From: an uncultured Pseudomonadota bacterium
Lineage (GTDB): Bacteria > Pseudomonadota > Gammaproteobacteria > Methylococcales > Methylomonadaceae
NCBI GenBank assembly: GCA_903918375.1
Contig: CAIXED010000079.1
Location: forward strand, 1-35,981
DNA: 35,981 nucleotides
Reading direction: 5' to 3'
The notes under the pieces were generated by a model that saw nothing but the letters and a program-made list of their open reading frames with translations, did not search any database and was not told where the DNA came from. Positions 4,602 through 15,323 of this stretch are shown piece by piece. How positions within the stretch are numbered: position 1 is the stretch's first letter; every line of letters begins with the position of its first letter. The position numbers were made by a program, and so were the translations under genes.

Positions 4602-5738
4602 ATGAGCGGAAGCCAAACCAAAAATGCAGCGTTAACAACCGCTTTAGCGTTTCATTACCAAGTATTGATTGGCTTGGATAAGTGCTTTTCGCTTGAAGAC
4701 GGCCAGTCTGTGTGGTTCGAGAAAGACGGTGATGTCAGCTTGATTTCACCAGACGCGTTGGCATCAATACAAACTGAAGTGAAAGATTACTCATCGGCTC
4801 TCTCAGACCACCACGAAAATCTTTGGAAAACGCTAAAGAATTGGCTAGCACCAGAGTTTGACCACGCTCAATACGGTATTTTGGTGCTTCACACGACCCA
4901 AGCTTTTGGCACGACAAGTCGTCTAAAAGACTGGAATTCACAAAGTGCAGAACAACGCCTACAAGTCCTGAAAGATATTTTTGCGGAACGTACCGAAGTT
5001 CAACTTAACGACAAAAAGCAATCAGAAATAATAAGGCTGCAAAAAACGGTAATGCAAGATTCGTCCGACCATGAGTTGATGGCTGTTCTAGCTAAAGTCG
5101 TATTGCATGTGCAATCGGAAGATCTAGATTCTTTAAAAAAGGCTTATTACAATAAGTTAAGTGGTTATATTCCGCATTTAAATAGGCAAGCTTTTGCTGA
5201 AGGGCTGATTGGGTTTATATACGAACAAGCGAATAGGGATGAATGGGTAATTGAGAAGGCTACGTTTGATCAAAAGCGAGAGGCTCTAACCGCTAAATGG
5301 GGGCCTACACGATTTACTATTCCTGACTTTATAAATAGAGATGCAACGGAAGACGAAGTCGATGCATATATTACTGAACTGTTTGCTCAAAAAATTCTTG
5401 AGATTGAGTATGAAGCCGTGTTGCCAGAAGCAATAGGTAACTGGCTAGAGCTAAGGAACTCGTTGATTGAAGAGCTTAATGGTTACCCGCAATTTAGGGA
5501 AACCGTTAACGGATACCGAGAACAGTGGATTCGTGCTTTTTCCGCAAAGTACCGGATGGCGATCCGTAAGCAGGGTAGCTCTATCGAGAAATCACAAGAC
5601 TTGTATGATCAATTAATAAGCGAAACGCCATTTGGTATCGATGGCTATCAAAATCCAGATTTGGTCTTTAGAAACGGCCTGATACAGGACGCTATGGATG
5701 ATGAAAAACGTAAGCTGAAATGGAAGGTTGAGCCATGA
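4602..5738 (+). CDS. ABC-3C system protein with N-terminal Cap4-like (DUF4297-type) dsDNA nuclease domain
   Basis: First gene of a three-gene conflict operon; 378 residues. The N-terminus has the layout of the restriction-endonuclease-like DUF4297/Cap4 nuclease: LAFHYQVLIGLDKCF (residues 15-29), Glu40, Asp44 (WFEKDGDV), then Q57-T-E59-V-K61, giving an E...D...ExK metal-binding and catalytic set. The remaining ~300 residues are helical and charged, and should hold the C-terminal domain that docks this protein onto the other ABC-3C components. The inferred role is a DNA-cutting effector held in check until the ATPase senses invading DNA or a phage structure. The stop overlaps the next start by 4 bp (ATGA). 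The nuclease call rests on the motif pattern, not on an alignment. Confidence 0.72.
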   Translation: MSGSQTKNAALTTALAFHYQVLIGLDKCFSLEDGQSVWFEKDGDVSLISPDALASIQTEVKDYSSALSDHHENLWKTLKNWLAPEFDHAQYGILVLHTTQAFGTTSRLKDWNSQSAEQRLQVLKDIFAERTEVQLNDKKQSEIIRLQKTVMQDSSDHELMAVLAKVVLHVQSEDLDSLKKAYYNKLSGYIPHLNRQAFAEGLIGFIYEQANRDEWVIEKATFDQKREALTAKWGPTRFTIPDFINRDATEDEVDAYITELFAQKILEIEYEAVLPEAIGNWLELRNSLIEELNGYPQFRETVNGYREQWIRAFSAKYRMAIRKQGSSIEKSQDLYDQLISETPFGIDGYQNPDLVFRNGLIQDAMDDEKRKLKWKVEP

Positions 5739-6268
5739 GTAGCATTGTCGATACTCTATATGAGTTGAAGTATAACCCCTTCGAATTTGGGGCATATCTT
5801 GCTTCTTTCTACTCCAAGCTATGTGAGTCAGAAAATAATCTGTTACTCGCTCCTTTGGTGATCCCTCTTTGTAGCCATCCCTTTTTCTTACTAAAACTAA
5901 ATAATGCGAAACCTAATAGTTCTATATTTACCATATTTGGTGGTGAAACGATGCTCAACACTGAACGCGATAACAAAATCTACGGAGGATTTTCATGGAA
6001 GCCGCATCAAAAAAAAATTGTACATCAGGAACAATTATTTGACCTACAAGAACGCATAGATGGGTTTCAAGAATTAACAGAGCAATCCATTCAATACTGC
6101 TTGGTAAATGATTGGCTGTCTGTCGACGAGCAAAGTTTGACGTTTCGCGCATGTGATGTATCTAATTCAGATTTTACCAATCAAAAAAGTGCAGAGAAGT
6201 TAGGGCGTTTATTCAGCGGTCACTCAGTGGTCGAGATTTATGCGTTTTTGGGAGTAAAACCGCGTTGA
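5735..6268 (+). CDS. ABC three-component system middle component
   Basis: This 177-residue protein sits between the nuclease gene (4-bp ATGA overlap) and the DUF3732 ATPase gene (TTGA overlap), the usual place for the ABC-3C middle component. Supporting sequence features are an N-terminal helix with YNPFEFGAYLASFY, a hydrophobic LLLAPLVIPLCSHPFFL segment (about residues 47-65) like the conserved LPL..HP core of these proteins, and a C-terminal helical region resembling a winged helix, ending with KLGRLFSGHSVVEIYAFLGV. Middle components are thought to bridge the ATPase and the effector; the exact biochemical role is not established. An alternative would be a small antitoxin-like regulator, but the tight operon makes the ABC-3C role much more likely. 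Confidence 0.7.
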   Translation: MSSIVDTLYELKYNPFEFGAYLASFYSKLCESENNLLLAPLVIPLCSHPFFLLKLNNAKPNSSIFTIFGGETMLNTERDNKIYGGFSWKPHQKKIVHQEQLFDLQERIDGFQELTEQSIQYCLVNDWLSVDEQSLTFRACDVSNSDFTNQKSAEKLGRLFSGHSVVEIYAFLGVKPR

Positions 6269-7674
6269 AAACATTAATTCATGAAATTGGCGTCATTGAT
6301 AAGCAAGGTAACAAACATCCTGTTAATTTTAAAAAAGGGCTAAATGTTGTTACCGGTAAGTCATCGACTGGCAAAAGTGCCTTAATTGAAATATTTGATT
6401 ATTGCTTTGGCAGCAAGGAGAACACCATTCCAAAAGGTGTGATTACCGACAATGCCGCTATTTACTACGTAGCGCTTTCGGCTAATGAACAAGAAATGGT
6501 GATTGCGCGTAATCCTGACATAGCGACTAAGGCTTTTTTTCGTCGTGTTGAGTCGTTCAACTCTGGCGATATTGATCGCAATTATTTTAACAGTAGCTAT
6601 TTCCGCCCGTTAGATGTGTTTAATAAGCATCTAAGAGACTTTTTCTTAGATATCGATGATGTGGATGAATCTTTGGCTGTTAGAGCCAATCGTCCATTTA
6701 ATGCTAAGGCGGCTACCCCTTCAATACGCAGCTTTTCATCATTTATGCTTCAGCATCAAAATCTTATCGCCAATAAACATGCGCTATTTTACCGATTTGA
6801 TGAAAAGGAAAAGCGTGATCAGGCGATTGATCATACTAAGATATTTTTAGGCTTAGTTGATCAGAAATACTTTCACTTGTCACAAGAAAAAGAACGGTTA
6901 AGTGCCGATGTTAGACGTTTGGAGCGTCACAAAGAGACAAACAAACGTACCTCTCAAAACTACAAGCAAAACGTTGGTCCTGTTTTAAGCCAGCTGTATG
7001 CTTTGATGGGATTTAAAGATGAGCCGCTATCTTTGCAGGAGGTACTACGCCACCCACAAGACGCCAAAGACCAGCTAGATAGCATTATCGTGCCTGAAAA
7101 AATTAATCATAACTCTGATGCTGTTACTCAACGCTACAATCAACTTAAGTTGGATCGCACTCAAAAGACTGCCGAGCTTAGAAAGTTGCAGCGTCAAGCG
7201 GCGTCAATTAACAAACATATTCAAGAAGAAGAACGTTTTGTTGATAACGTAAAACAGTTTAGCTCGCCAAAGCATGTCCATATATCAGCTTCAGTCTGCC
7301 CGTTTTGCCATACTGAAAAAGACACATTGCGAGAAAGCGCAGAAAAATTACGGCAAGCTATTACGAAAGTATCCGGTAACCTCGCACAAGCTCGCCCAAT
7401 GAAAGCAAAGTTTCAATCGTCCTTGGTTGAAGTGCAACGTAACATTGAGGTTATTGATAAGGGGCTGACAGCACTAAACCAGCAAATAACGGACATAGAG
7501 AAAGTAGAAAAACAGTTGGCTGAACAAAAAAGTCTGTATGAGAGCATTTTGATGCAAAAGGCGAAGTTATATATGCTTTTAGATACCCTCAACATGGCCA
7601 ATGATGTAGAGCTTGATAAGCAAATTAAGGCGCTAAACGAACAGCTAGAAGCCATTGATAAAGATCTGAAATAA
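6265..7674 (+). CDS. DUF3732 ATPase, N-terminal half (Walker A, coiled coil, CxxC hook)
   Basis: Third gene of the ABC-3C operon; 469 residues up to the premature stop. It begins MKTLIHEIGVIDKQG with a beta-rich ABC start and has Walker A GKSSTGKS at residues 31-38 followed by ALIEIFDYCFGSKENTIPKGVI, which is characteristic of DUF3732 proteins. A long coiled coil follows (about 195-330 and 355-470), with a CPFC motif (Cys345, Cys348) between its arms, like the zinc hook of Rad50. The family is SMC/Rad50-like and is expected to bind DNA as a dimer and signal to the effector. The TTG start overlaps the middle-component stop (TTGA). Alone, this half lacks the signature motif and Walker B and could not hydrolyse ATP normally. 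Confidence 0.8.
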   Translation: MKTLIHEIGVIDKQGNKHPVNFKKGLNVVTGKSSTGKSALIEIFDYCFGSKENTIPKGVITDNAAIYYVALSANEQEMVIARNPDIATKAFFRRVESFNSGDIDRNYFNSSYFRPLDVFNKHLRDFFLDIDDVDESLAVRANRPFNAKAATPSIRSFSSFMLQHQNLIANKHALFYRFDEKEKRDQAIDHTKIFLGLVDQKYFHLSQEKERLSADVRRLERHKETNKRTSQNYKQNVGPVLSQLYALMGFKDEPLSLQEVLRHPQDAKDQLDSIIVPEKINHNSDAVTQRYNQLKLDRTQKTAELRKLQRQAASINKHIQEEERFVDNVKQFSSPKHVHISASVCPFCHTEKDTLRESAEKLRQAITKVSGNLAQARPMKAKFQSSLVEVQRNIEVIDKGLTALNQQITDIEKVEKQLAEQKSLYESILMQKAKLYMLLDTLNMANDVELDKQIKALNEQLEAIDKDLK

Positions 7675-7725
7675 TATGATGTTCAAAAAGGACTAGAAAA
7701 TGCATCTGCAAAAGTAAATGAATAT

Positions 7726-8277
7726 ATGGCTGAAATTGGCAGCAATTTTGAATTTGAAGCCAGCTATAAGCCAATCAACCTTCACTTCTCATTTGAGACA
7801 TTTGATCTGTACCACTTAACGCCTAATGGAAAAATCTACTTAAGATCCATGGGCAGTGGTGCAAACTGGTTATATTGCCATGTGACACTATTTCTAGCAT
7901 TGCACAAATATTTTGCTGAGTTGGGTGATAAATGCGCTATTCCATCAATACTATTTTTTGATCAGCCAACGCAGGTATATTTCCCTAATTTTAATCGAGA
8001 CAACTCTGAAACTTTTGAAGATCAAAAAAGCCAAGAGAAGCAGCAGCGTAAGATGCTAAATGTTGGTCAAAATATTGATGAAGACATTAAAGCTGTTGAA
8101 AATCTATTCAGTCAACTCTCGATTTATTGCAATGAGCTTGAGCAGAAGAATGGTTTTAGTCCACAAATCATCGTGACTGATCATGCGGACAATTTGACGT
8201 TGTCGAACGGGGTATCGTTTGAGTCTTTGGTTAACGGCAATAGATGGCGAATGCGCGGCTTAATTCATCCTACATAA
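7726..8277 (+). CDS. DUF3732 ATPase, C-terminal half (signature and Walker B)
   Basis: This is the same frame as the upstream half, starting at the first ATG after the premature stop; 183 residues. It holds the ABC signature-like SMGSGAN (residues 41-47), then the helix HVTLFLALHKYF and the Walker B region ILFFDQPTQVYFP (75-87), where a Gln follows the Asp as in DUF3732 proteins. A likely D-loop/H-loop segment (PQIIVTDHADNL) comes next. No Shine-Dalgarno precedes ATG 7726, so translation as a separate protein would be weak. It would complement the first half only if the two associate. Most likely this is the stranded C-terminus of a broken gene. Confidence 0.72.
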   Translation: MAEIGSNFEFEASYKPINLHFSFETFDLYHLTPNGKIYLRSMGSGANWLYCHVTLFLALHKYFAELGDKCAIPSILFFDQPTQVYFPNFNRDNSETFEDQKSQEKQQRKMLNVGQNIDEDIKAVENLFSQLSIYCNELEQKNGFSPQIIVTDHADNLTLSNGVSFESLVNGNRWRMRGLIHPT

Positions 8278-8937: not shown

Positions 8938-8984
8938 ATGGAGCTGGTGATGGGACTCGAACCCGCGACCGGCTGATTACAAAT
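8938..8984. repeat. Left attachment site (47-bp direct repeat of the tRNA-Thr 3' end)
   Basis: The 47 bp are identical to 15247-15293, which cover the 3' end of tRNA-Thr from the CCA end through the T arm and variable loop to the anticodon. After the repeat the sequence diverges (TTGAAGG here, CAGCTGC in the true tRNA), so this is a displaced partial copy and not a tRNA gene. Confidence 0.9.
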
Positions 8985-9101
8985 TTGAAGGCCCGCTATT
9001 TCCTGCTGATTACTCAACCTTAACGAACCTTTACAAACCGCAGCCTACAGCCTATCATTGCCTTAACGGTGCTACACCAAAAACGCTCATTTTTAACCGA
9101 A

Positions 9102-9123
9102 AGCGTAGCACCAGCGTAGCACC
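9102..9123 (+). repeat. Tandem 11-bp repeats near the left att site (candidate integrase arm sites)
   Basis: Two adjacent copies of AGCGTAGCACC lie between the left att and the integrase start. An inverted GGTGCTAC is nearby at 68-75 of the same kilobase (9068-9075). A matching tandem pair in the same orientation lies at the right end (15180-15201). Paired short repeats just inside both att sites are the usual form of arm-type binding sites for tyrosine integrases. Confidence 0.55.
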
Positions 9124-9141
9124 AGAAAACAAGGGCATTAT

Positions 9142-10359
9142 ATGGAAACGCATTTCAACTTTACAAAGCCGCAGCTTGAAGCACTGACAGAACCTAAACC
9201 CGGCGAGCGTGTCATTTATCACGACACCCACAAAAACGCCGCAGGCTTGCAACTTCGAGTTACCAACACCAGCAAAACCTTTTTCATTCAAAAGCGGGTG
9301 GACGGCAAGCCGGAGCGCGTTACCGTTGGCAAGTTTCCGGATTATTCGATTGAGAACGCCAGAAAGGAAGCGGCGAGACTTAGCGCGCTGATTGCCGAGG
9401 GAATCAACCCCAACACCGACGCCAGAGCGTTAAAGACTGAAACCACCCTGCAAGACTTGTTCGACGAGTTTCTAAAACATCGACGCAACAAGCGCGGCGC
9501 GTTTCTGTCGGAGAAAACCAAACGGAGTTACCGCTACGACTTCGGGCTGTACCTTGGCAAGTGGAGCGGGCGCAAGCTGTCACAGTTCAAAGATACCGAC
9601 TTCGGCAAGTTACATTCAGAGATCGGCAAAGAACACCCCACCACGGCAAACCGAGTAATAGCAATGGCGTCTAGTCTGTTTGGCTATGCCGCCGAGCGTA
9701 AGCTATTCAAAGGGGCGAACCCCGCCCACGGTATCAAGAAATACCCAGAAACCAAGCGCGACCGCTTTTTACAATCCGACGAATTACCGGCTTTTTTTAC
9801 CGCACTAGCCGAGGAACCCAACGACACTCTACGAGATTACTTTTTAATATCGCTGCTAACAGGTGCTAGGCGTTCCAATGTACAAGAAATGGAGTGGAGC
9901 CAGATCAACTTTGGCCGGGCAGAGTGGCGGATACCAACAACCAAAAACGGCGAACCGCAAACCGTAACCTTATCCGCCGAGGCGCTGGAAATACTACGCA
10001 ATCGGCAAAGCTGCGACCCTGTTTGGGTTTTTCCTGGCACTGGCTCAACTGGTCATTTAGTCGAGCCTAAGAAAGCATGGCGGCGCGTCTTAGATCGAGC
10101 GGGGATTGATAATTTGAGGATTCACGACTTACGCCGCACCCTTGGAAGCTGGCAAGCTAAAACCGGCGCATCGCTGGCGATAGTCGGCAAAAGCCTTAAC
10201 CACAAATCACCATCGACAACGGCAATCTATGCGCGCCTTGATCTTGATCCAGTGCGGGAGTCAGTAGACCGGGCAACCGGCGCAATGTTGGCCGCTGCTG
10301 GTGTTAAACCTGCCGGGGAAGTGGTAGAGATCAACATAAAGACAAGGAGCAAAAATTGA
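9142..10359 (+). CDS. P4-type tyrosine integrase (site-specific recombinase)
   Basis: This 405-residue enzyme integrates and excises the element at tRNA-Thr by strand exchange through a 3'-phosphotyrosine. It has the N-terminal arm-binding DUF4102 domain (about residues 5-85; PKPGERVIYHDTHKNAAGLQLRV and the DGKPERVTVGKFPDYSIENARKEA part), a SAM-like core-binding domain (about 100-190) and a catalytic domain. Catalytic residues visible are Arg243 (TGARRSN), His328-x-x-Arg331 (HDLRR), His354 (LNHKS) and Tyr363 (AIYARL), so it appears intact. It lies 157 bp inside the left att site and reads into the element. Its stop overlaps the TTG start of the next gene. Confidence 0.95.
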   Translation: METHFNFTKPQLEALTEPKPGERVIYHDTHKNAAGLQLRVTNTSKTFFIQKRVDGKPERVTVGKFPDYSIENARKEAARLSALIAEGINPNTDARALKTETTLQDLFDEFLKHRRNKRGAFLSEKTKRSYRYDFGLYLGKWSGRKLSQFKDTDFGKLHSEIGKEHPTTANRVIAMASSLFGYAAERKLFKGANPAHGIKKYPETKRDRFLQSDELPAFFTALAEEPNDTLRDYFLISLLTGARRSNVQEMEWSQINFGRAEWRIPTTKNGEPQTVTLSAEALEILRNRQSCDPVWVFPGTGSTGHLVEPKKAWRRVLDRAGIDNLRIHDLRRTLGSWQAKTGASLAIVGKSLNHKSPSTTAIYARLDLDPVRESVDRATGAMLAAAGVKPAGEVVEINIKTRSKN

Positions 10360-10928
10360 GACTTCCACCCATGCCAGCAGAATGGATAGACCTGCCAGTT
10401 GATGAGCTTGGGCTGAGGTTGTTGGCTTGGTGGATAGCCGCACAAGCCGAGAGAAAAGGCATAGACCCAACCGCAATACCTGAGCATATCGCAGAACAAA
10501 TTATCATTGCGACAAGGGGAATGGATGGCGACCAAGCACATATTGCAGCACTTGAAAAAGCACTAATCAAAGCTGCACAGGGGGAGTTTGCAAAAGCAGG
10601 AACCCTGCTTCATGGATATATGCAAATCGGAGCTGAATCGATGGCGGCAGCGGACTTAATTTCAAATCTCGAACCGGACACTAAGCGAGGCGGCAAGGTA
10701 CGGCGAGGCGCGAAAAGAGGACATGAATTAGTACACGGTGACTCAGTAACAAAAGAAACCAGACGCAGACAATATTTAGATCTAATGGACGAGATCAAAG
10801 CTAAAAACCCTTGTCTAACAGGGCAATCACTTCACAAAGCAGCTGAAAAACAATCATCTAAGGTGCTCGGAAAACGTGTTTCTTATAAAACCTTTGAGCG
10901 AACCGAAAAGAATGAACATCAAAAATAA
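10356..10928 (+). CDS. Hypothetical element protein downstream of the integrase
   Basis: The start is TTG 10356, overlapping the integrase stop (TTGA) and supported by AAGGAG 6 nt upstream. The 190-residue product is mostly helical: an N-terminal Trp-rich part (PAEWIDLPVDELGLRLLAWWIAAQAE), a middle helical part (about residues 60-110), a basic Gly/Arg/Lys linker (RGGKVRRGAKRGHE), and a C-terminal part (GQSLHKAAEKQSSKVLGKRVSYKTFER) that reads like a helix-turn-helix. A DNA-binding regulator or small-terminase-like protein is conceivable, but I do not recognise the family. Confidence 0.6.
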   Translation: MRLPPMPAEWIDLPVDELGLRLLAWWIAAQAERKGIDPTAIPEHIAEQIIIATRGMDGDQAHIAALEKALIKAAQGEFAKAGTLLHGYMQIGAESMAAADLISNLEPDTKRGGKVRRGAKRGHELVHGDSVTKETRRRQYLDLMDEIKAKNPCLTGQSLHKAAEKQSSKVLGKRVSYKTFERTEKNEHQK

Positions 10929-11009
10929 TTAGGACAGTCTCGCCACTGTCCCAAGTTGAAATCACCAAACTACGGCCATGTTTAACAAGAACCTATGGAG
11001 GTTCACAAC

Positions 11010-11222
11010 ATGGCAATATCTACACCCAACCCAACCAAAGATGAAATATTCGGCAATACCAGCGCCGCTGAATATATTGGCGTCACCCCTCGCACATTAG
11101 AAGTTTGGCGCTGCACCAAGCGTTATCAAATCCCGTTTATCAAAGTCGGTCGATTGGTGAAATACCGCAAATCGGCGCTTGATGCGTTTCTCGACTCTCG
11201 CACTGTCGGCGCGGAGGGTTAA
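11010..11222 (+). CDS. AlpA/excisionase-like helix-turn-helix protein
   Basis: The start is ATG 11010 (MAISTPNP) because GGAGG lies 8 nt upstream; the in-frame ATG at 10995 falls within that site's leader. The 70-residue product has one compact MerR-like winged HTH: NTSAAEYIGVTPRTLEVW, then YQIPFIKVGRLVKYRKSALDAFL. This is the layout of AlpA-type regulators and excisionases (helix-turn-helix domain, PF12728 group). In small islands such proteins control integrase transcription or steer excision. Its place between int and the replication genes fits that role. Confidence 0.82.
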   Translation: MAISTPNPTKDEIFGNTSAAEYIGVTPRTLEVWRCTKRYQIPFIKVGRLVKYRKSALDAFLDSRTVGAEG

Positions 11223-11226
11223 GAAA

Positions 11227-11733
11227 ATGACGGACAACAAAAAAGCCGCACCAGTCGGGCAACTGGGAACGGCTCAATTTCAAAACTCTCAAAACCATTT
11301 TAACAATATCGACGGCAAGCTAAGCAACTTTTTAGCAAAGCTGGAAGGCGTCAAAACCAACGGCTCGAATAAATGGCTTGCTAAGTGTCCGGCGCATTCT
11401 GACAGATCACCGTCGTTAGCAATCAAGCTGGCTGATGATCGAATATTGATACATTGTTTTGCCGGGTGCAGCGTGGACGCCGTGTTAGGCGCTGTCGGGC
11501 TGGATATGGCCGGTTTGTTTCCTGATCGTGTCGCCAACCCTGGCACACCTAAACCAAAGGCCCCACGTTTTAGTGCTTACGAACTTTTCCCGCTGTTGAT
11601 TCAGGAGGCGCTGATTCTGGCGATTGCCTTCGATGCTGTCGTTTCCGGCGATGTTATGGCAGACGTAGACAAGCAGCGCGCCACACAGGCGTTTAATGCA
11701 GTTATGCGGTTGAATAGCGAGGTGAGGCAATGA
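11227..11733 (+). CDS. CHC2-type zinc-finger primase-like protein
   Basis: The start is ATG 11227 after GGAGGG with an 8-nt gap, 4 bp after the previous stop. The 168-residue protein has a CHC2 zinc ribbon of the DnaG-primase type: Cys54-x2-His57 (KCPAHSDRSPSL) and Cys77-x3-Cys81 (HCFAGCSVDAVLGAVGLDM). Only the zinc-binding domain is present; no TOPRIM catalytic core follows. The C-terminal ~70 residues are helical. In such elements this protein is encoded directly before DUF3987 and probably forms the replication initiator/primase module with it. Its stop overlaps the DUF3987 start by 4 bp (ATGA). Confidence 0.8.
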   Translation: MTDNKKAAPVGQLGTAQFQNSQNHFNNIDGKLSNFLAKLEGVKTNGSNKWLAKCPAHSDRSPSLAIKLADDRILIHCFAGCSVDAVLGAVGLDMAGLFPDRVANPGTPKPKAPRFSAYELFPLLIQEALILAIAFDAVVSGDVMADVDKQRATQAFNAVMRLNSEVRQ

Positions 11734-13244
11734 GTTTAGAAGCCAAATTAGATCAAATCAACACGGCGCAAACAATGCCACCGGAACCACTCAGAGCATC
11801 ACTGCCACCATCAACGCCTTACCCGGTCGAGCAATTAGGCGATGTATTAGGCGGCGCTGCTCAGGCCTTACACGAAACCATCAAAGCACCTTTAGCCCTT
11901 TGCTGTCAGTCGGTACTTGCCGCGGCGGCGTTTTCTGCCCAGAGCCATTTTGATGTGGTTTTACCTTGGGGCGATAGAAAACCGCTCAGCCTGTTTTTGC
12001 TGACAGTGGCTGATTCGGGTGAGCGTAAATCTGCGGTCGATGACGCCGTGCTAGGTGCAGCCAAGGCACAAGAAAGGCTCGAAATGGCGAGTTACCAAAT
12101 CGAGTTTGAGCTTTACGAATCGGGGCTTGCTAAATGGAAAGCAGCCACCGACGCAGCCAATAAAAAGACCACAAAGCCCAAAAGCCAAGCCGCAGCCGAT
12201 TACACCCAAAACGAGGCGCACGAGATAGGCCCAAAGCCCAAGGCACCTATCATGCCCTTACGGTTCGTTACTGACCCGACAGTTGAAGGCCTTTATAAAC
12301 TGCTGGTCACGGCTCAGCCTTCCGTTGCGTTATTTTCTGACGAAGGTGGTTTACTGATAGGTGGCAATGCCTTGAATGGTGAGAACGCACTCAAGACCAT
12401 GGCGCGCTGGTGCAAACTTTGGGACGGCTCACCCTTTGACCGAGTAAGGGCTGGCGATGGCTCAGGATGCCTTTACGGGCGACGTATGGCAATGCACCAG
12501 CTCGCACAACCGGATGTTATGCAAAAGCTGCTAGGCGACCGCATGGCAAATGGGCAAGGTCTATTAGCACGGTGCTTGGTAGCGTGGCCCGAGTCCACTA
12601 TCGGCAAACGGCATATTCAAGCGTTTGAAAATCCAAAAGACCGGCACGAAGTTAAGCGACTGTTTGCAATCCTCAAAACATTGGCCGAAGCGACACCACG
12701 CGCAAGCGATGGCAATCCGCAGGAATTAGACCCTGTCGAGTTGCCATTGAACGCCGCCGCACATCAAATGGCGATTGATGCCGTAAATAAATTCGAGGAT
12801 TTAATGAAAGTTGGCGCTGACCTTGCCGAGCTTAAAGATAGAGCGAGCAAAGCCCTAGAGAATGCTTGCCGGATTGCGGGCATATTGTCGATGATTGAAA
12901 ACGGCATGGCCGCGCGTGAAATTACTAAAACCCACCTAGAACGCGGCCTGATCCTAATGCAGTGGTATTTAGCCGAATCGTTACGCATCCAGAGTGCGGC
13001 TATCGTTCCGCAGTCGGTACTAGATGCCGAATCATTATCGAGATGGTTAGCCAGTCGGGATATTCAGGAGTTCGCCACGCGCACCATATTAAACAAAGGC
13101 CCAAACCCGCTACGTAATAAGCCAAGACTAAATGCCGCTATCGGTGAACTTGTCGGCGCTGGTTACTTAGCCGCAAACGATCTCGGCGCGATGATTGAGG
13201 GGAAAAAAGCGAAACTATCATGGAGAGTTTTACATGTGGTTTAA
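11730..13244 (+). CDS. DUF3987 (YfjI-type) replication ATPase/helicase-like protein
   Basis: This 504-residue protein is typical of the DUF3987 family found in satellites and genomic islands. After a Pro-rich N-terminus (about residues 15-35) comes the domain core: YPVEQLGDVLGGAAQALHE, LAAAAFSAQSHFDVVLPWG, then PLSLFLLTVADSGERKSAVDD, whose SGERKS stretch is the family's P-loop-like site in place of a canonical GKS/T. Further on are VALFSDEGGLLIGG, a Walker-B-like acidic pair, and MAMHQLAQPDVMQKLLGD. Members are thought to act in element replication together with the preceding CHC2 protein; enzymatic activity is inferred, not shown. The downstream Cys-rich gene starts inside its last codons. 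Confidence 0.85.
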   Translation: MSLEAKLDQINTAQTMPPEPLRASLPPSTPYPVEQLGDVLGGAAQALHETIKAPLALCCQSVLAAAAFSAQSHFDVVLPWGDRKPLSLFLLTVADSGERKSAVDDAVLGAAKAQERLEMASYQIEFELYESGLAKWKAATDAANKKTTKPKSQAAADYTQNEAHEIGPKPKAPIMPLRFVTDPTVEGLYKLLVTAQPSVALFSDEGGLLIGGNALNGENALKTMARWCKLWDGSPFDRVRAGDGSGCLYGRRMAMHQLAQPDVMQKLLGDRMANGQGLLARCLVAWPESTIGKRHIQAFENPKDRHEVKRLFAILKTLAEATPRASDGNPQELDPVELPLNAAAHQMAIDAVNKFEDLMKVGADLAELKDRASKALENACRIAGILSMIENGMAAREITKTHLERGLILMQWYLAESLRIQSAAIVPQSVLDAESLSRWLASRDIQEFATRTILNKGPNPLRNKPRLNAAIGELVGAGYLAANDLGAMIEGKKAKLSWRVLHVV

Positions 13245-13872
13245 GCCCGCCGAATATCAAAAATCAAATCCTTTGGTAGTTGCGACAATTGCGAAAGCTG
13301 CGACAAAAACACCTGAAAACCCTCATTTGTCGCAAAAGTCGCGAATGTCGCAGCCCGTTACATTTTCGATTGAGGATTACGAGCAAGCCGAATCTGTCGC
13401 AGTTGTCGCAAAAGTCGCAAGGGGATTAGATACGGAAAACCGTCAAAAGCTGGTGGCCTACCTGGACGCTATCGGCGAAACAGATCAAGCCAGCATCGAC
13501 GAATATCTGACCGAGTGCGGCAAGGATGCCGAAACCCTGGCAAGGGAGTTACAACAGGCCGACGATTGCTTACAGATCAAAACCGGCGACTATAACGGGC
13601 TGGTGCAATGCTCAGGCTGTGTCTACCTGTCCGGCGATACCTGCAACCGTTACCGCTGGCGCGTGGTCGTCGATAAATGGCGGCGCTGTGCTGACCATGC
13701 CCAAAAATCGGAAACCATCACCTGCAAATCATGCGGCCATTTCCAGAGCTTTAACAATCATGGTGGCGGCGCTGGTGCGTGTCGTGCTGACGTTCAACCC
13801 TTCGGCGCTTGCTGGTGGGCTGATACTGTTCACGAATGCGACAAATATCAGACTTTGGAGGCTGGAAAATGA
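13234..13872 (+). CDS. Cys-rich hypothetical protein with two zinc-binding-like clusters
   Basis: The start is ATG 13234 (MWFKPAEYQKSNP), 5-7 nt after GGAGAG, overlapping the DUF3987 stop. The 212-residue protein has a low-complexity Ala/Val/Lys/Ser N-terminal part (about residues 15-70) encoded by the iteron-like DNA repeats, then a helical middle. Two Cys clusters follow: CSGCVYLSGDTC...CADH (about 125-155) and CKSCGHF...ACRADVQPFGACWW...CDKY (about 165-205). The second looks like a diverged copy of the first, each able to bind a zinc ion. Proteins of this type often follow DUF3987 in mobile elements, but the function is unknown. Confidence 0.65.
   Translation: MWFKPAEYQKSNPLVVATIAKAATKTPENPHLSQKSRMSQPVTFSIEDYEQAESVAVVAKVARGLDTENRQKLVAYLDAIGETDQASIDEYLTECGKDAETLARELQQADDCLQIKTGDYNGLVQCSGCVYLSGDTCNRYRWRVVVDKWRRCADHAQKSETITCKSCGHFQSFNNHGGGAGACRADVQPFGACWWADTVHECDKYQTLEAGK
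13281..13419. repeat. Nine TGTCGCA-like repeats in three 9-bp-spaced triplets (iteron-like, possible origin)
   Basis: Triplet A (inverted, TGCGACA) starts at 13281, 13290 and 13299. Triplet B (TGTCGCA) starts at 13328, 13337 and 13346. Triplet C starts at 13395, 13404 and 13413. The middle copies of A and B and the last of C differ by one or two bases. All lie inside the Cys-rich gene, yet A, B and C are translated in different registers or orientations (VATIAKAAT, LSQKSRMSQ, VAVVAKVA). Conservation is therefore at DNA level. Position directly after the CHC2-DUF3987 replication genes suggests an initiator-binding array. Confidence 0.6.
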
Positions 13873-15054: not shown

Positions 15055-15179
15055 AAAAAACGCATGTGATAATGTAACAATCAGGCCGGGTAACACCGGA
15101 TTTTTTATTGCTTTATGGGGAGGAATTTTAGTTTTTTAGGCGGCAGAGGTTTAACCAAATACAGCTTGGTTTAATCGAA

Positions 15180-15201
15180 CCCGTAGCACTAGCGTAGCAC
15201 C
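15180..15201 (+). repeat. Tandem 11-bp repeats near the right att site (candidate integrase arm sites)
   Basis: A CCGTAGCACT copy is followed by AGCGTAGCACC, the same 11-bp tandem unit and orientation as the pair at 9102-9123. The pair ends 45 bp before the att repeat. See that entry for interpretation. Confidence 0.5.
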
Positions 15202-15202
15202 A

Positions 15203-15239
15203 AATAAAAAAGGCCTAGGTGAAAAACACCTAAGCCTTT
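15203..15239 (-). terminator. Rho-independent terminator of tRNA-Thr
   Basis: On the minus strand a 13-bp stem (AAAGGCTTAGGTG with CACCTAGGCCTTT, one G-U pair) with a 5-nt loop is followed by a T run. It begins about 8 bp after the CCA end of the tRNA. Confidence 0.75.
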
Positions 15240-15246
15240 GATTTAT

Positions 15247-15293
15247 ATGGAGCTGGTGATGGGACTCGAACCCGCGACCGGCTGATTACAAAT
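15247..15293. repeat. Right attachment site (47-bp repeat within tRNA-Thr)
   Basis: Identical to 8938-8984. It covers the 3' part of the intact tRNA-Thr gene, so insertion of the element restored a functional tRNA at this end. Confidence 0.9.
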
Positions 15294-15323
15294 CAGCTGC
15301 TCTACCAACTGAGCTACACCAGC
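15248..15323 (-). tRNA. tRNA-Thr (anticodon UGU)
   Basis: The 76-nt cloverleaf on the minus strand has acceptor stem GCTGGTG/CACCAGC, discriminator T and encoded CCA, D arm GCTC...GAGC, anticodon stem CTGAT/ATCAG around loop TTTGTAA (anticodon TGT), variable loop, and T arm CGCGGGTTCGAGTCCCATCAC with the TTCGA loop. The 3' half coincides with the right att site. A strong promoter lies just upstream (15333-15361). Confidence 0.96.

Follow-up and report, generated by a model that had tools for sequence, protein, structure and literature searches.

The stretch analysed here (the window) comprises positions 1 to 35,981 of contig CAIXED010000079.1 of an uncultured Methylomonadaceae bacterium, and it contains a satellite-like integrative element of approximately 6.31 kb inserted in a tRNA-Thr gene. 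Directly behind the DUF3987 helicase gene of this element lies an array of nine heptamers which very probably is its replication origin, the DUF3987 protein being the initiator that would bind the heptamers as iterons and a neighbouring CHC2 protein serving for priming. We assign these functions by analogy with the staphylococcal pathogenicity islands (SaPI), the staphylococcal cassette chromosome mec (SCCmec) and the phage-inducible chromosomal minimalist islands (PICMI). As judged from sequence comparison, what is conserved between DUF3987 loci is the design of the array and not the heptamer TGTCGCA, which changes alongside the C-terminal domain of the helicase.

Nine heptamers behind the DUF3987 gene

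The array occupies positions 13281 to 13419 and consists of nine units in three triplets, with a step of exactly 9 bp within each triplet. The first-pass annotation of this DNA had described nine heptamers at such steps in three groups of three, the first group being opposite in orientation to the other two, and both the coordinates and the orientation were reproduced. Triplet 1 (13281..13305, plus strand) is direct, with TGCGACA, TGCGAAA and TGCGACA at 13281, 13290 and 13299. Triplet 2 (13328..13352, minus strand) and triplet 3 (13395..13419, minus strand) are inverted and read, in plus-strand letters, TGTCGCA, AGTCGCG and TGTCGCA at 13328, 13337 and 13346, and TGTCGCA, TGTCGCA and AGTCGCA at 13395, 13404 and 13413. 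All nine units are thus present, but they are not equal copies as had been implied: six are perfect, two have one mismatch and one has two.

The array starts 36 nt beyond the stop codon of the DUF3987 gene (11730..13244, plus strand), the product of which matches PF13148 (E 5e-90) and the DNA helicases of phrog_2373 (E 2.6e-52); DUF3987 is the sole Pfam family matched by this proposed initiator at E <= 0.01. The preceding gene (11179..11733, plus strand) encodes a zinc-ribbon protein of the primase type, with matches to CHC2 (PF01807, E 1.3e-4, under the curated cut-off) and to the DNA primases of phrog_6088 (E 1.6e-12). These profile matches bear out the earlier placement of the array just downstream of a CHC2 and a DUF3987 gene. 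The array itself is encoded in the N-terminal linker of the next gene (13234..13872, plus strand), which specifies a Cys-rich protein of 212 aa that is probably zinc-binding, judging by its cysteines. This protein gave no match among Pfam, PHROGs and NCBIfam, and a weak PADLOC match to PDC-M20A (E 0.0014).

The heptamer alone is not rare, as it occurs 10 times in the window against 5.19 expected, a count that was reached in 2 of 100 shuffles. When triplets at 9-bp steps were scored for this heptamer over the 36 kb, the three best non-overlapping places were the array triplets, with 1, 1 and 2 mismatches in total, while the next-best place elsewhere has 5. The array is therefore noteworthy for the clustered arrangement of its units, the heptamer count itself being unremarkable.

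The same design at other DUF3987 loci

DUF3987 loci were taken from three genome searches and one search of viral contigs. A total of 161 were fetched (L097-L126, L127-L206, L207-L227 and L228-L257), the 80 genome loci being the best 80 of 476, and 135 were kept after dropping L251 (no match), incomplete frames, proteins shorter than 150 aa, duplicates sharing identical last 200 residues and loci with less than 150 nt downstream. A direct-plus-inverted array was found at the helicase stop in 84 of these 135 non-redundant loci, compared with 21 of 1340 places drawn at random in these loci at a distance of more than 900 bp. A search of other CHC2-DUF3987 elements for such arrays at the same place had been suggested earlier as a check; at these DUF3987 loci the place is shared in the 84, while TGTCGCA itself is not conserved. 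Since the anchored test presets the motif [TCG]GC[GT][AG], an A or C at base 4 is invisible to it. A detector without a preset motif scored 83 of 135 loci at the stop and 8 of 670 places elsewhere; seven of its 83 arrays lack GC[GT][AG], and two of the seven are of low complexity. Long flanks were available for 62 loci; the test is passed by 41 of them at the stop and by no more than three at any one of 23 other offsets. When the step was varied in 30 loci, 24 reached a score of at least 4 with a step of 9 bp, against 0 to 8 loci with each of 16 other steps and none in 150 shuffles.

Three of the 84 loci lack a direct group of two with an inverted unit after it, and the remaining 81 were used for the layout counts. 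Counting from the first base of the stop codon, the first direct unit falls between +31 and +61 in no fewer than 65 of the 81 loci; triplet 1 of the window is the counterpart of this direct group and starts at +39. A second inverted triplet is also found in several relatives, e.g. L098, L104 and L105. The heptamer varies within the form NGC[G/T][A/G]NN, mostly TGC[G/T]ANN (TGCGACA, TGCTAAT, TGCTACT, TGCGAAA, CGCTACA and others), and what is kept despite this change is the 9-bp step, the place and the convergent order. Going by their record titles, the 48 loci on genome contigs among the 84 include Alpha-, Beta- and Gammaproteobacteria, Desulfuromonadia, Myxococcota, Chlamydiota and Deinococcota.

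Relatives of the window DUF3987 protein were found in 43 of 301 genomes of its order and in 37 plasmid records, and no match was obtained among 50,697 phage records at E 1e-5. In the circular Pseudomonas putida record NZ_CP043577.1 (19,249 bp) DUF3987 (YfjI) is the only annotated gene of the replication-initiator type in a gene table that is incomplete; the record also has an integrase and a DEAD/DEAH helicase adjoining an HNH endonuclease. An inverted TGTCGCC triplet follows the DUF3987 stop at +111, +120 and +129 (detector score 3.5).

Some loci show arrangements of other kinds. In L156, L166, L180 and L182, from Rickettsiales-like or other alphaproteobacterial contigs, there are no TGC units but one-way triplets of TTTAG-type units, and the conserved G-P after residue 456 of the helicase is altered in all four. 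A distant DUF3987 group (L236, L240, L241 and L243) has arrays of another motif, CGCACAA or CGCAAAC. In Meiothermus luteus (L206) the best array of the same motif lies approximately 4.5 kb upstream of the DUF3987 stop and equals the array at the stop in score. The Psychrobacter plasmid pA37P2 (L259) has many GCTTAA-type units after position 9210, behind its DUF3987 gene, and also has RepM.

A residue-to-base code in the helicase C-terminus

Base 4 of the heptamer is strongly linked to residue 455 of the helicase (window numbering), with a mutual information of 0.87 of 1.0 bit and a z of 25.4, the highest of 499 columns. The runner-up is the neighbour of residue 455, with a z of 6.9. The residue-base counts are R-G 26, N-G 10, H-G 3, K-G 3, Q-T 32 and T-T 8, and the code in which R, N, H or K goes with G, and Q or T with T, holds in 82 of 84 loci. 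A second link joins base 6 to residue 451 (z 15.9): R goes with C in 31 of 35 loci, A or S with A in 20 of 23, and N, T or V with T in 14 of 18.

The rule that N and R give G and that Q and T give T was fixed from L097-L126 before the C-termini of the later loci were examined. The motifs of L127-L227 were already known at that time, and the placing of H and K in the split of R/N/H/K against Q/T is post hoc. Of 64 later loci the rule covers 58 and is correct in 57; for the 45 of these whose identity to each earlier locus is below 50%, the figures are 42 covered and 41 correct. In NZ_CP043577.1 the position of residue 455, read by eye from the C-terminus, is R and matches the code prediction for base G.

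With a tree of residues 20-430, which leaves out the C-terminus, there were no fewer than 12 changes of base 4 on starred branches, and 21 on the best tree. In 12 phylogenetically independent pairs residue 455 differed in the same direction in 10, in the opposite direction in none, and showed no difference in 2 (p 0.002). Because the independent pairs agree 10 to 0, the link between base 4 and residue 455 does not come from shared ancestry.

The AlphaFold2 model of the window DUF3987 protein has a mean pLDDT (predicted local distance difference test score) of 92.4. Its C-terminal part, residues 428-504 (13011..13241, plus strand), is predicted to be a winged-helix domain, with the element order helix 428-442, strand 447-449, helix 450-456, helix 464-476 and then strands, and the same elements were obtained when this domain was folded alone (pLDDT 85). 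The covarying residues, 451 (codon 13080-13082, plus strand), 455 (codon 13092-13094, plus strand) and more weakly 449-450, all fall in this domain. A Foldseek search with the domain gave winged-helix domains among the first matches, none of them at E <= 0.001 (best 0.014). The whole model is most like MCM and ORC chains (E 4.8e-6), which we take only as a hint, since the TM-scores are low (0.2 to 0.4) and the root-mean-square deviation is large. No solved structure was matched when the DUF3987 alignment was used for a sequence search.

The motif follows the helicase and not the gene that contains it

Since the array lies in the gene of the Cys-rich protein, and the Cys pattern suggests zinc binding, this protein might itself bind its own coding sequence. 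Relatives of the Cys-rich protein are, however, also found behind helicases of the DUF927 family: the five upstream proteins scanned (L070, L071, L073, L074 and L078) all match DUF927, two of them also matching the Cch helix-turn-helix domain under the cut-off. The Cys-rich proteins at these five loci are 45-67% identical to that of the window, and the arrays they sit with are of the GTTCCC or GTAACAC type, again with a 9-bp step (scores 2.9 to 4.8). Because similar Cys-rich genes beside DUF927 carry other motifs, the motif goes with the helicase and not with the gene containing it. With arrays at DUF3987 loci of many bacterial groups as well, we regard binding by the Cys-rich protein as very improbable. 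A search for its relatives in viral contigs gave 69 candidate stretches with 0 confirmed, and none were found among plasmids.

Among the DUF927 loci of the order, arrays scoring at least 4 follow the stop in 12 of 29, compared with 12 of 232 other places; 29 of 30 loci were used, one being dropped with its stop too near the end. Eight DUF927 loci (L271, L273-L276, L279, L284 and L286), of the family of SaPIbov1 Rep and Cch, follow a distinct post-stop grammar, in which a direct pair is joined by a single inverted unit 30-32 bp past the first unit and by a direct triplet that starts 63 bp past that first unit, with motifs of the GTAAC or GTTCC type.

Probable selection on DNA rather than on the encoded peptide

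Within the open reading frame 13234-13872 the three triplets are read as VATIAKAAT, LSQKSRMSQ and VAVVAKVA, and the earlier suggestion that selection acts on the DNA more than on the peptide is supported by a comparison with L068, a relative that carries this array too. Between the two loci 3 of 63 heptamer sites differ, compared with 40 of 103 in the surrounding linker (Fisher p 3e-7) and 130 of 470 in the remainder of the gene (p 2e-5). Relatives that keep the peptide without the DNA heptamers, or that have no array at this position, had been named beforehand as evidence to the contrary; the counts given above point the opposite way, with arrays in 84 of 135 loci, although the other 51 do not pass the test.

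A peptide-level linker of the Val-Ala-Thr kind, its DNA repetition arising from codon use, would have a 9-bp step as three codons, and 75 of the 81 arrays do fall within open frames 80 aa or longer. Both groups begin at the third codon position in 43 of these 75. Moreover, the bare pattern picks up ordinary peptide repeats: the exact pattern TGTCGCANNTGTCGCANNTGTCGCA is a poor marker, being present in 64 stretches of viral contigs, many of them plain peptide repeats such as GATGATGAT or VAPVAPVAP, collagen-like GAT repeats being among them, and therefore no count was built on that scan. Yet in 26 of the 75 framed arrays the codon phase differs between the direct and the inverted group, six of the 81 arrays lie outside any long frame, the spacing of the groups has the 10.4-bp period described below, and the heptamer covaries with a residue of another protein, the helicase. 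A linker as the cause of the repeats was already disfavoured and is the least probable of the explanations considered here, with next to no chance of being correct. We propose instead that the array peptide is a tolerated linker of the Cys-rich protein.

The groups are phased on the DNA helix

Between the last direct unit and the first inverted one, preferred distances are 18-22, 29-30 and 38-41 bp; in the window the distance is 29 bp. Scanning periods from 6 to 16 bp gave a best period of 10.4 bp with R 0.80 (n = 73, eight of the 81 loci with gaps above 60 bp being left out), a uniform null having its 99.9% level at 0.39. With related loci of equal distance collapsed, 38 values were left, giving R 0.70 at 10.2 bp. 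The period is that of the DNA pitch and is as expected for proteins bound on one face of the helix.

The array as a candidate origin

The events that we infer would run as follows. After excision of the element, the DUF3987 AAA+ helicase would contact the heptamers through its C-terminal winged helix and assemble on the direct and inverted triplets, which are opposed to one another on a single side of the helix. It would then melt the DNA at the array or load there, and the CHC2 protein would provide priming. The origin would accordingly lie just 3' of the initiator gene and extend through the 5' coding part of the next gene.

Several observations weigh against this proposal. Fifty-one of the 135 loci fail the direct-plus-inverted test, partly as truncated genes or one-way arrays, and in the YfjI-like group from viral contigs (L217, L218, L220, L223 and L227) no TGC array was found. 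The residue-to-base code has exceptions in L177 (R with T) and L216 (K with T), and outside the set the Psychrobacter locus L259 has N, as read by eye, together with TGCTTAA units. The motif assignments of L236 and L244 are doubtful; without these two the code holds in 80 of 82 loci and the held-out rule in 55 of 56. The covarying residues sit in the predicted helix 450-456 and not in helix 464-476, the one that in winged-helix domains usually does the recognition. Array scores are under 4 (2.9 to 3.2) at three of the five DUF927 loci with Cys-rich relatives. For PICMI, the deletion of prim is said in the text to lower the number of circular copies, while in the legend significant differences are given only for the int, iolg and alpA deletions (PMC10803314). 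Finally, no clear AT-rich unwinding stretch was found in the arrays: the spacer has 44.1% AT compared with 41.8% locally and is higher in 46 of 81 loci, and from +0 to +150 the AT content goes up by a small 3 to 6 points.

The missing of a marked AT-rich stretch would also fit a site which the DUF3987 protein binds for copy-number control, incompatibility or regulation, replication starting elsewhere, and the covariation shows a pairing with the helicase and not the outcome of that pairing. Against such a site speaks that places at other offsets rarely pass the test (no more than 3 of 62 loci, compared with 41 at the stop), and since these passes are few there is no second site of equal standing. 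In addition, the sites found in the same place in SaPI and SCCmec are origins or putative origins (PMC7581432). A regulatory site is for these reasons unlikely, although it is the alternative to which we give the most weight, and we favour the array as the origin of the 6.3-kb element.

Relation to known systems

SaPI Rep recognises iterons directly downstream of its own gene via its C-terminal domain, and for Cch2 of SCCmec the isolated C-terminal domain binds a putative origin with three iterons downstream of the helicase gene (PMC7581432). SaPIbov1 Rep is related to the DUF927 protein Cch, and SaPI5 Rep to Cch2. The principle of iterons 3' of an initiator-helicase gene is thus already known from SaPI and SCCmec. 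The window array resembles the SaPI arrangement in lying directly downstream of an initiator-helicase gene, as do the arrays of the other DUF3987 loci, and in that the helicase C-terminal domain appears to set iteron recognition, here as suggested by the covariation. It differs from it in the helicase, which is DUF3987 and not DUF927 or Primase_Cterm/D5, in the convergent triplets with a 9-bp step, in an origin that would lie within a coding region and in a residue-to-base code that is readable from nature. SCCmec Cch2 belongs to another helicase family and has AAGTG iterons, an intergenic site and a staphylococcal host.

The alpha protein of satellite P4 is a primase-helicase with a sequence-specific DNA-binding part, and P4 has ori and crr iterons; its helicase family and its iteron differ from those of the window. 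In iteron plasmids of the RepE/TrfA type the Rep initiator is not a helicase and recruits the host DnaB, whereas the gene adjacent to the window array matches a DNA-helicase family and AAA+ structures.

The PICMI satellites of Vibrionaceae are approximately 6 kb and carry int and a gene that shares 4 nt with it, together with an AlpA-type regulator and a primase gene; in their model AlpA is PF05930 or PF12728, and the primase is found with DUF3987 or DUF5906 profiles (PMC10803314). The window element is like them in its PF00589, PF12728 and PF13148 genes and in its size of 6.31 kb, and unlike them in its insertion in tRNA-Thr and not downstream of fis, in its Methylomonas-like host and in having CHC2 on a separate gene. 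The main text of that paper does not use the word "iteron", and "origin of replication" appears there a single time, in the introduction (PMC10803314). A helicase function of DUF3987 in mobile elements has so far been a prediction (PMC5862659), and PMC7145576 concerns a different initiator, RepA_N. The open-access literature searched gave no pointer to iterons or an origin for DUF3987 systems. Within this literature, what is new is the helicase family, the convergent 9-bp grammar inside a coding region, the breadth of its occurrence and the natural code.

DUF3987 (YfjI) proteins are widespread, and their profile helps to define the PICMI satellites. The array gives this family a candidate origin at a predictable place together with a natural residue-to-base code, and the compatibility of initiator and origin should therefore be readable from the sequence and testable with natural protein pairs. 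Val-Ala-Thr-like linkers in unannotated proteins downstream of such helicases would then be the translated trace of the repeats. More tentatively, and with somewhat less than even confidence, we suggest that DUF3987 could be a further large family of self-loading initiator-helicases of an MCM/ORC-like build (AAA+ plus winged helix), which would form two opposed rings on convergent, helically phased triplets concealed within the next gene. Specificity might then lie in a few residues of one helix, 455 reading base 4 and 451 reading base 6, and satellites might be split into many origin-compatibility types that swap initiator and origin as a module at their junction.

The element and its surroundings

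The left end of the element, attL (8938..8984), is a 47-bp perfect copy of the 3' part of the tRNA-Thr gene and forms a direct repeat with attR (15247..15293), which lies within the tRNA-Thr gene itself (15248-15323, minus strand). A tyrosine integrase is encoded at 9142..10359 (plus strand; PF00589 E 1.6e-23, PF13356 E 6e-16). It overlaps by 4 nt, according to the coordinates, with an open reading frame with a TTG start (10356..10928, plus strand), which has the position of iolg in PICMIs and gave no match among Pfam, PHROGs, NCBIfam and PADLOC. The next gene (10995..11222, plus strand) encodes a small HTH_17 DNA-binding protein of the AlpA/excisionase type (PF12728, E 8.2e-8, exceeding the cut-off), and there are additional open reading frames between the Cys-rich gene and attR. 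Among the best 80 of 476 loci, the best named relative is a Methylomonas metagenome-assembled genome (85% identity).

As the element encodes an arm-binding integrase and an HTH_17 protein, the heptamers could in principle be arm-type sites of the former or excisionase sites of the latter. A separate pair of repeats does, however, adjoin both att sites, where arm sites are expected: the stretch 9092..9136 carries two AGCGTAGCACC units with an 11-bp step and is an 82% repeat of 15170..15214 at the opposite end, of the same AGCGTAGCACC type, and both are probable arm-type sites of the integrase. The heptamer array lies approximately 1.8 kb from attR, and its motif tracks a residue of the helicase. 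We therefore hold a role of the heptamers in integration or excision to be very unlikely, and the candidate origin remains the preferred explanation of the array.

To the left of attL, at 4602-8277, lies a Lamassu-like defence cluster with LmuA (E 3e-37), LmuC (E 1e-14) and LmuB, the last of which is split across two open reading frames (6265-7674 and 7726-8277).
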